Below are positions 29,743-31,512 of a stretch of 40,523 nucleotides of DNA, in pieces. The position numbers were made by a program, and so were the translations under genes. Position 1 is the first letter of the stretch, and each line of letters starts with the position of its first letter. The stretch lies in NCBI GenBank assembly GCA_946406555.1, contig CAMJLB010000010.1, forward strand, positions 1-40,523. The letters are read 5' to 3'. The notes beneath the pieces are model-generated. The model searched no databases and had not been told where the DNA came from. It saw only the letters and a list, made by a program, of their open reading frames with translations. The DNA comes from an uncultured Prevotellaceae bacterium. GTDB lineage: Bacteria > Bacteroidota > Bacteroidia > Bacteroidales > Bacteroidaceae.

Positions 29743-31512
29743 TTATTTCTGGTTGTCTTTCTGCCGTATCTCCACGCGACGAATCTTTCCGCTGATGGTC
29801 TTGGGCAACTCGTCGACGAACTCCACGATGCGGGGGTACTTGTAGGGTGCGGTGACCTTCTTCACATGCTGTTGCAGCTCCTTTACTAGGTCGTCGCCAG
29901 CCTTCGACTTCCACTCCTTGCCCAGCACCACGGTAGCCTTGACCACCATGCCGCGAATGTCGTCGGGCACGCCGGTGATGGCACACTCCACCACGGCGGG
30001 GTGGGTCATCAGTGCGCTTTCCACCTCGAACGGGCCGATGCGGTAGCCGCTCGACTTGATTACGTCGTCTATGCGCCCTTCAAACCAGTAGTAGCCGTCT
30101 TCATCGCGCCAGGCCATGTCGCCCGTGTGGTACAGACCGTCGTGCCAAGCCTCGTGGGTCTTCTCGTCGTCGCGGTAATATTCCTTGAAGAGGCCGATGG
30201 GCTTGGTGCTGGCCCCCCCTACTGCCCCCGAGACAATGGCCCCCCCTACTGCCCCCGAGGGGGCTTCTATAGTTTTAGCGCTCGGTGCTATAGTAGCCCC
30301 CTCGGGGGCTGAAGGGGGGGCCGGCACTCTAATGACGATCTCGCCCTTCTCACCGTCTTCGCACGGCGTGCCGTCGGGCTTCACGAGGGCTATGTCGTAC
30401 TGGGCGTTGGGCATGCCCATCGAGCCGGGCTTCGGCTTCATCCAGGGGAAGGTGCCCAGCGTCATCGTGGTCTCGGTCTGGCCGAAGCCCTCCATCATGC
30501 GTATGCCTGTCTTTTCGTAGAACTTGTCGAACACAGCGGGGTTCAAAGCCTCGCCGGCGGTGGTACAGTACTCTAGGGCCGAGAGGTCGTACTTCGAGAG
30601 GTCCTCGCGTATCATAAAGCGGTAGATGGTGGGCGGGGCGCAGAAGCTCGTCACGCGGTACTTCTCCATCTGGCGCAGCAGCGTGTCGGCATTGAATTTC
30701 TCGTGGTCGAACACGAACACCGTGGCTCCGGCAAACCACTGGCCGTAGAACTTGCCCCAGACGGCCTTGCCCCAGCCCGTGTCGGCCACGGTGAGGTGGA
30801 GCGAGCCGGTGTGCAGGTTGTGCCAGAACACGCCGGTGGTGAGATGGCCCAAGGCATAGAGGAAGTCGTGGGCCACCATCTTCGGCTCGCCGCTGGTGCC
30901 CGAGGTGAAGTACATCAGCATCGTGTCGCTGTTGTCGTTCTTCTCTGCGGGCCGTACAAACTGAGGGGCATGCTCAATCTCTTTCAGATAGTCGTGGAAG
31001 CCTTCGGGAATCTGGTGCCCGATAGCGATGTATTGGCTTACGGTAGGACTCTCTTCCTTGGCCAGCTGAATCTGCCCCGTCACGTATTCATCGTCCACGC
31101 AGACGATGGCCTTCACCGAGGCCCTCGTGTTGCGGTACACGATGTCGTGCTTGGTAAGCATGTGGGTGGCGGGTATGACGACGGCCCCCAGCTTGTGCAG
31201 GGCCAGCATCACCACCCACCATTCGTAGCGGCGCTTTAGGATGAGCATCACCGGGTCGCCCTTGCCTATGCCCAGCGACTGCAGATAGGCGGCGGCCTGG
31301 TCGCTCTGTTCCTTCAGCTGCCTGAAGGTGGCGCGTATCTCCTCGCCCTGGTCGTTGGTCCAGAGCAGTGCCAGGCCGTCGGGCCATTCGCGGGCCCACT
31401 CGTCCATCACGTCGTAGGCAAAGTTGAAGTGCTCGGGAATGATAAACTCCAGGTGCTTATTGTAATCCTCCACTGAGGTGAAGCTTGTCTGCTTCAGAAA
31501 TCTTTCTACCAT
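29743..31512 (-). CDS. AMP-forming acyl-CoA synthetase / AMP-dependent ligase, with an in-frame family-1 insert
   Basis: LMYFTSGTSGEPKMVAHDF (AMP-binding P-loop), EGFGQTETT, LYHTGDMAWRDEDGYYWFEGRIDDVIKSSGYRIGPFEVE, and PKTISGKIRR near the C-terminus. Confidence 0.92.
   Translation of the reverse strand: MVERFLKQTSFTSVEDYNKHLEFIIPEHFNFAYDVMDEWAREWPDGLALLWTNDQGEEIRATFRQLKEQSDQAAAYLQSLGIGKGDPVMLILKRRYEWWVVMLALHKLGAVVIPATHMLTKHDIVYRNTRASVKAIVCVDDEYVTGQIQLAKEESPTVSQYIAIGHQIPEGFHDYLKEIEHAPQFVRPAEKNDNSDTMLMYFTSGTSGEPKMVAHDFLYALGHLTTGVFWHNLHTGSLHLTVADTGWGKAVWGKFYGQWFAGATVFVFDHEKFNADTLLRQMEKYRVTSFCAPPTIYRFMIREDLSKYDLSALEYCTTAGEALNPAVFDKFYEKTGIRMMEGFGQTETTMTLGTFPWMKPKPGSMGMPNAQYDIALVKPDGTPCEDGEKGEIVIRVPAPPSAPEGATIAPSAKTIEAPSGAVGGAIVSGAVGGASTKPIGLFKEYYRDDEKTHEAWHDGLYHTGDMAWRDEDGYYWFEGRIDDVIKSSGYRIGPFEVESALMTHPAVVECAITGVPDDIRGMVVKATVVLGKEWKSKAGDDLVKELQQHVKKVTAPYKYPRIVEFVDELPKTISGKIRRVEIRQKDNQK
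30211..30327. repeat. Family-1 palindromic element, copy B (in-frame in the acyl-CoA synthetase), with a duplicated left arm
   Basis: ggccccccctactgcccccgag occurs twice (30211 and 30239). The core ggccccccctactgcccccgagggggcttctatagtttt...atagtagccccctcgggggctgaagggggggccggcac matches copy A. Confidence 0.9.

Follow-up and report, generated by a model that had tools for sequence, protein, structure and literature searches.

The window analysed here, a stretch of 40,523 nucleotides from an uncultured Prevotellaceae bacterium (contig CAMJLB010000010.1), contains an acyl-CoA synthetase gene that carries, in frame, a palindromic segment at 30211–30327. In our view this segment most probably belongs to a family of non-autonomous mobile palindromes that reside mainly within genes, and is translated as a tolerated, linker-like peptide. 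The segment is an insertion relative to orthologous synthetases, and its relatives are dispersed among unrelated conserved genes, in which they keep one fixed open frame and have loops of codon-compatible length; the genome's remaining palindrome families contrast with this. A preliminary description of the window had likened the segment to the Rickettsia palindromic elements (RPEs), and its absence from homologues, together with the many copies inside and outside genes, bears out the analogy. The building block, however, is a half-element (≈34 nt) that is often found as a pair of non-identical inverted arms, an arrangement closer to doublets of repetitive extragenic palindromes (REPs), or REPINs, than to a single RPE.

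In the mechanism that we propose, a hairpin-ended, non-autonomous unit would be copied to many sites by an enzyme acting in trans; our best guess for its movement is a single-strand mechanism like that of REPINs and IS200. Copies in genes would survive mainly in one permissive frame (frame 1), within variable protein loops, where transcription and translation would turn the element into a short peptide of low complexity that resembles a linker (APPSAPEGATI...TIEAPSGAVGGA) while the host protein keeps working.

The synthetase open reading frame (ORF) encodes 589 residues without a stop codon, and all downstream motifs are present, consistent with the earlier statement that the enzyme frame was intact. 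Between GEIVIRV and KPIGLF lie 38 residues encoded by the palindrome, in the order GEIVIRV-PAPPSAPEGATIAPSAKTIEAPSGAVGGAIVSGAVGGAST-KPIGLFKEYYRD. The strong imperfect palindrome that had been noted here was recovered as two 35-nt arms, 91% complementary, around a 15-nt loop. The predicted RNA fold of the whole segment had an energy of −78.7 kcal/mol (z = −5.7), which was equalled by none of 200 shuffled sequences, and an Rfam search of the window gave no match. The segment also includes, at 30211–30237, a partial duplication of the element's end, as also occurs in other copies. The near-identical copy reported in a lipoprotein ORF was likewise found, 26.7 kb away (≈3549–3669), matching in two 53-nt blocks with 91% and 79% identity; its peptide reads PAPPSAPEGAIIETSPNSKTIEAPSGAVGGA. 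Because this copy precedes the lipoprotein signal peptide, its translation hinges on the true start codon.

Family members had been described as usually carrying only a few residues at the insertion site, and this is what we observed: in ≈100 of the 120 listed homologues there is only a short turn (e.g., GEIVVRVGDRKPIGLF), as there is in 78 of 80 metagenome loci and in 29 of 30 loci, the thirtieth being the window's own. The PAPPSAPEGA segment is therefore not ancestral. The turn is three residues long in almost all synthetase relatives, and the commonest homologue length is 554 residues, compared to 589 here, so that the window's gene is longer by 35 codons net. The alignment with 3ETC, the nearest solved relative, covers both sides of the insert and breaks exactly at it. 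Two further proteins (P0004 and P0005), nearly identical and encoded on other contigs, have the same insert, and quite different inserts occupy the same turn in seven further proteins (P0006, P0012, P0021, P0046, P0074, P0085 and P0091) and two loci (L247 and L316), which indicates that this site tolerates insertions and has received them more than once. Some of the inserts in other strains are partly palindromic, and the turn looks like a hot loop for insertion. The synthetase tree, which bears on whether carriers cluster, was weakly supported. A metagenome scan for an empty allele in the same species found no polymorphic site, the nearest relatives being at most 84% identical.

Other copies of the element reside in genes of unrelated function. 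Host names assigned by NCBIfam include TypA, DnaE, TyrRS, PriA, GcvT, UvrA and RsgA, as well as ThrA, AlaRS, MetH, PurL, SufB, Dxs, GuaA and IlvD, and many host genes could be aligned with relatives that do not have the insert. Empty sites were identified at the nucleotide level in three comparisons (L018 with contig C68 of the home genome, G000, from which the window comes; L112 with L093; and L072 and L089 with G000 contig C88), with flanks ≈80–97% identical (3–20% diverged). The net gains at the inspected sites fit simple insertion. No target duplication was evident, in flanks that are too diverged to fix the ends to the base.

In dnaE, the copy in G000 (C145, 4722–4814) is opposite in orientation to those at the same site in L132 (4816–4899) and L152 (3949–4041), resulting either from independent insertions or from flipping in place. 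In typA, the copies in L072 (5247–5333) and L089 (3810–3896) are identical in the element sequence shown while their flanks differ by 7–10%, which suggests recent conversion, transfer or independent insertion. At two gene junctions, an element lies just before an ATG (G000 C25, 22660–22695; L154, 3734–3769), where it may lengthen the protein encoded upstream and also provide a ribosome-binding site.

The half-unit reads C-TATAG-(A/T)-AG-CCCCCTCGGGGGC-N-G-(T/A)-AG-GGGGGGC and is found alone or, in complete elements, as a pair of inverted arms that differ in sequence and enclose a short loop. In many complete elements, one arm is of the GAAG type and its partner of the GTAG type; in others, the left arm has diverged further. 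The B arms have the form GTAG-CCCCC-TC-GGGGG, and the A arms carry GAAG and have GTAG at their opposite side; both inverted doublets and singles are seen. Within the half-unit, the bases at positions 5 and 23 can pair in 252 of 259 units (158 A-T and 94 T-A), a covariation that points to a REP-like anatomy. On contig C45 of G000 (18696–18806), two half-units flank the native residues PDFSYPLSRYANV, while the relative L096 (4982–5019) has one half-unit, indicating that half-units can insert on their own.

The placement of the element relative to the reading frame was determined for copies pooled from many genomes, with frame classes assigned from the codon usage of the flanks alone, using a codon model trained on the home genome. 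Out of 195 classifiable elements, 147 were read in a single open frame and had the same gene on either side, 16 were frame-shifted, three contained a stop codon and 29 were intergenic or at gene ends. When the flanks were measured 60 nt away (192 elements), 139 were in frame, 24 were shifted or had a stop, and 29 fell into other classes. The intragenic ratio of 139:24, against an expected 1:2, corresponds to p ≈ 1e-42, a value that is a guide only, since copies from related species are not independent. Single and double units used frame 1 (TIEAPSGAVGGA / APPSAPEGATI) in ≈142 cases and the second open frame in four. (Two copies that the script labelled as frame 2 proved on inspection to be in frame 1, and a further listed copy, G000_C96, probably does not represent an element.) Loop lengths in the in-frame doubles were 2 mod 3 in 46 of 46 cases (11, 14, 17, 20, 23, 26, 29, 41, 50 and 53), and the coding frame was open on both strands in 44 of these 46. 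Among intergenic doubles, both strands were open in 7/8 and the loop was codon-compatible in 7/8. As an internal control, the remaining families of multi-copy palindromes in the home genome lie between genes; in a related GC-rich family, 3/17 copies were in frame, one of them reading through a stop, compared to 17/22 for the element (Fisher p = 7e-5). The intact frames in conserved housekeeping genes suggest that the insertion is tolerated, and its effect is presumably neutral or mildly costly.

Counting copies inside and outside genes in related genomes had been proposed as a check, and many more were found in both places. The home genome contains 35 half-units in 23 elements. Pattern scans spanned the genus, family and class of this genome: the core pattern occurred in 15 of 101 genomes of the genus sample (at least five matches in nine, up to 48; none in 86), in 7 of the 401 genomes of the family sample (2 of its 30 genera), and only in the home genome in the class sample. 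In Prevotella-type metagenome-assembled genomes, 117 stretches with the element were found. The named matches are Prevotella, Prevotellaceae or Bacteroidaceae assemblies, many of which, by title, come from rumen, abomasum or omasum. Neither a search of viral contigs with the exact pattern nor a search of the 101 genomes with the variant core of metagenome locus L316 gave a match. Among the synthetase loci L188–L217, those of genomes with at least five copies look GC-richer (0.54–0.59) than those of most non-carriers.

In their behaviour towards genes, a close parallel is provided by the RPEs, palindromic repeats of ≈100–150 bp that lie in frame in many unrelated conserved genes and also between genes (PMC2229807). 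Like them, the Prevotella element is multi-copy, sits in frame in unrelated conserved genes and is absent from the orthologues; unlike them, it belongs to another phylum with a free-living gut habitat, is GC-rich and consists of REP-like half-units that can also insert alone. With the GTAG class of REPs and REPINs it appears to share a short stem, a 2-nt loop, a GTAG-like foot (GTAG in the B arms, GAAG in the A arms), a hairpin of inverted units and multiple copies. A survey of GTAG REPs lists families from Proteobacteria, Cyanobacteria, Chloroflexi and the PVC (Planctomycetes–Verrucomicrobia–Chlamydiae) group, with none from Bacteroidetes, and intragenic copies are known, most of them in Opitutus terrae (PMC3733652). 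Since intragenic REPs have thus been described in other phyla, the element is not a new kind; what seems new is the phylum, for which the literature search gave no description of such an element. In agreement with the preliminary description, no counterpart in Prevotella was found in the literature searched, which left out most subscription papers. Miniature inverted-repeat transposable elements (MITEs) of the ERIC and YAPL type are also small, non-autonomous and able to fuse with genes in frame (PMC2229807), but they are longer (127–168 bp). A MITE of a DDE transposon would be expected to leave a target duplication, and none was evident at the empty sites, where the flanks are too diverged to fix the ends; no systematic search for a parent transposon was made. 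Inverted repeats within protein-coding genes, perfect and up to 284 bp long, also occur in nematomorph mitochondria (PMC6649704); these are mitochondrial and, in the part of that paper available to us, show no sign of forming one dispersed family.

The similarity to REPs raises the question of whether the element is a true GTAG-class REPIN moved by a TnpA-REP, or REP-associated tyrosine transposase (RAYT), the copies in genes being a by-product. This would be a special case of the explanation given above, and we consider it a serious possibility, although we lean against it. The short stem, TC loop, G(T/A)AG foot and hairpin of inverted units all fit, as do the patchy multi-copy distribution and the lack of an obvious target duplication at the empty sites, and a subclass of TnpA-REP with atypical structures is particular to Bacteroidetes (PMC6006769). 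On the other hand, REPs and REPINs lie mostly outside genes (PMC3116915, PMC3733652), while this element is mostly within genes (139/192 in frame). A REPIN would also be expected to accompany a RAYT gene flanked by the repeat, and no such gene was found in the draft home assembly or the carriers examined: Y1_Tnp is missing from the home assembly and from G024, and the Y1 genes of carriers have no flanking motif.

That the repeat is instead a selected functional module, such as a linker, an mRNA pausing hairpin, or a recombination or uptake signal, is improbable. Its composition is benign and linker-like, its frame is strongly biased, as is the direction in which it lies within the host gene (26:9 for A/B doubles, p = 0.006), and its share in genes in the home genome exceeds that of a neutral insertion model (17/22 compared to 40%, p = 4e-4). 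However, the hosts are functionally unrelated, orthologues in relatives do not have the insert, and the distribution is patchy. Moreover, the quite different inserts in the same synthetase loop of other strains argue for tolerance rather than function, and the share in genes in another carrier, G060, is close to the neutral value.

Somewhat more improbable still is that the palindrome is not read into protein, either because the ribosome hops over the hairpin, as in the mitochondrial byp elements and T4 gene 60, or because the RNA segment is removed, yielding an enzyme of normal length. The great stability of the coding-strand hairpin and the entry into essential genes without loss of frame would be consistent with bypass. 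Yet a skipped or spliced segment need not keep the frame, and the frame and length of a byp element would be unconstrained, whereas here the loops are codon-compatible without exception, frame 1 prevails over the other open frame, and stops are nearly absent. No matched take-off and landing codons were evident at the synthetase junctions. Finally, an assembly artefact or repeat chimaera in metagenome bins is hardly credible even though the named carriers are metagenome-assembled genomes or assemblies of uncultured isolates, because P0004 and P0005 carry the same insert on independent contigs, the same TypA insert occurs in two genomes with diverged flanks, and misassembly could not yield the in-frame statistics.

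Some of our observations weigh against a mobile, translated element. No insertion polymorphism was found between near-identical strains that would support current mobility or fix the exact ends and any target duplication. The proposed translation of the insert is deduced from sequence. Its placement in a surface loop is suggested by the 3ETC alignment and the length variation at the turn, but the AlphaFold model was too poor to serve as proof (mean pLDDT, the predicted local distance difference test score, of 33 with a single sequence and 54 with a 28-row alignment). In G060, the most complete carrier, 15 of 32 elements were in frame, 10 were intergenic and seven were shifted or had a stop, an in-gene share (15/32) near the neutral value. 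No Y1_Tnp gene (PF01797) was present in the home assembly, an 84.6%-complete draft, or in G024 (14 copies; 56% complete), and the core motif was absent around the Y1_Tnp genes of the carriers examined (L228–L242). Because of the incompleteness of the two genomes, the absence of Y1 is weak evidence. As a candidate for the cognate transposase, Y1_Tnp was nevertheless rejected, as it has no home copy, no clear co-occurrence with copy number in the 101 genomes, and no flanking motif in carriers. The coordinates of the element and its hosts are listed in Table 1.

Table 1. Features of the palindromic element and its two host ORFs in the window.
Feature	Position	Strand	Remarks
Lipoprotein ORF holding second element	2811..3818	-	Start codon uncertain
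Second element of the family	3565..3653	-	N-terminal part of lipoprotein ORF
Acyl-CoA synthetase host gene	29743..31512	-	AMP-binding, PF00501+PF13193; ACSM-like; best solved relative 3ETC
Partial tandem copy of element end	30211..30237	-	27 nt = 9 codons, encodes (I)VSGAVGGA
In-frame palindromic element	30238..30322	-	Left arm APPSAPEGATI, loop APSAK, right arm TIEAPSGAVGGA
Half-unit, GAAG type	30238..30272	-	CTATAGAAGCCCCCTCGGGGGCAGTAGGGGGGGCC; inverted-repeat search
Loop between arms	30273..30287	.	15 nt between CTATAG boxes; 17 nt between TATAG starts = 2 mod 3
Half-unit, GTAG type	30288..30322	+	CTATAGTAGCCCCCTCGGGGGCTGAAGGGGGGGCC; inverted-repeat search
Example peptide expected from insert			VPAPPSAPEGATIAPSAK

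The window contains several other repeats. Within a 631-aa ORF (24359–26254, minus strand), a degenerate palindrome of another GC-rich family (GLTPQPLPAGRG...YSPPYRESLGGE) at 24780–24900 appears to be in frame. Further palindromes, of the GGGGAGGGG type, are located at 19034–19264, 21006–21052 and 26377–26490; one of them overlaps the signal-peptide region of a 4340-aa ORF (6140–19162; QTGRG...PSIQGGVGGG), and that at 26377–26490 is intergenic, with 40-nt arms that are 95% complementary. Between two genes, at 29546–29660, there are ≈5 tandem copies of a 22-bp repeat (CCGTTAGCCTGCAATACAGTAT), and interleaved T-rich repeats (TTTTGTTCTTTTGT...) at 24203–24364 adjoin the start of a 1003-aa ORF.

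Selfish palindromes that lie in frame within genes are familiar chiefly from Rickettsia and Wolbachia, which are intracellular, and for which relaxed selection offers a ready explanation. The element described here is abundant in free-living rumen Prevotella, in genes for DnaE, tRNA synthetases, TypA and UvrA. Tentatively, it might be viewed as a gene-dwelling parasite adapted to translation: with a length that is a multiple of three and both strands open, it would yield an inert linker either way and could spread at low cost through the coding DNA of a dense genome. Its occurrence offers a way to test whether proteins in large, competitive populations gain new loops from mobile DNA, and it provides dozens of natural pairs with and without the insert, from which the cost of such a loop could be measured. 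It also serves as a warning that alignments and metaproteome searches in carrier species contain a recurring foreign peptide.
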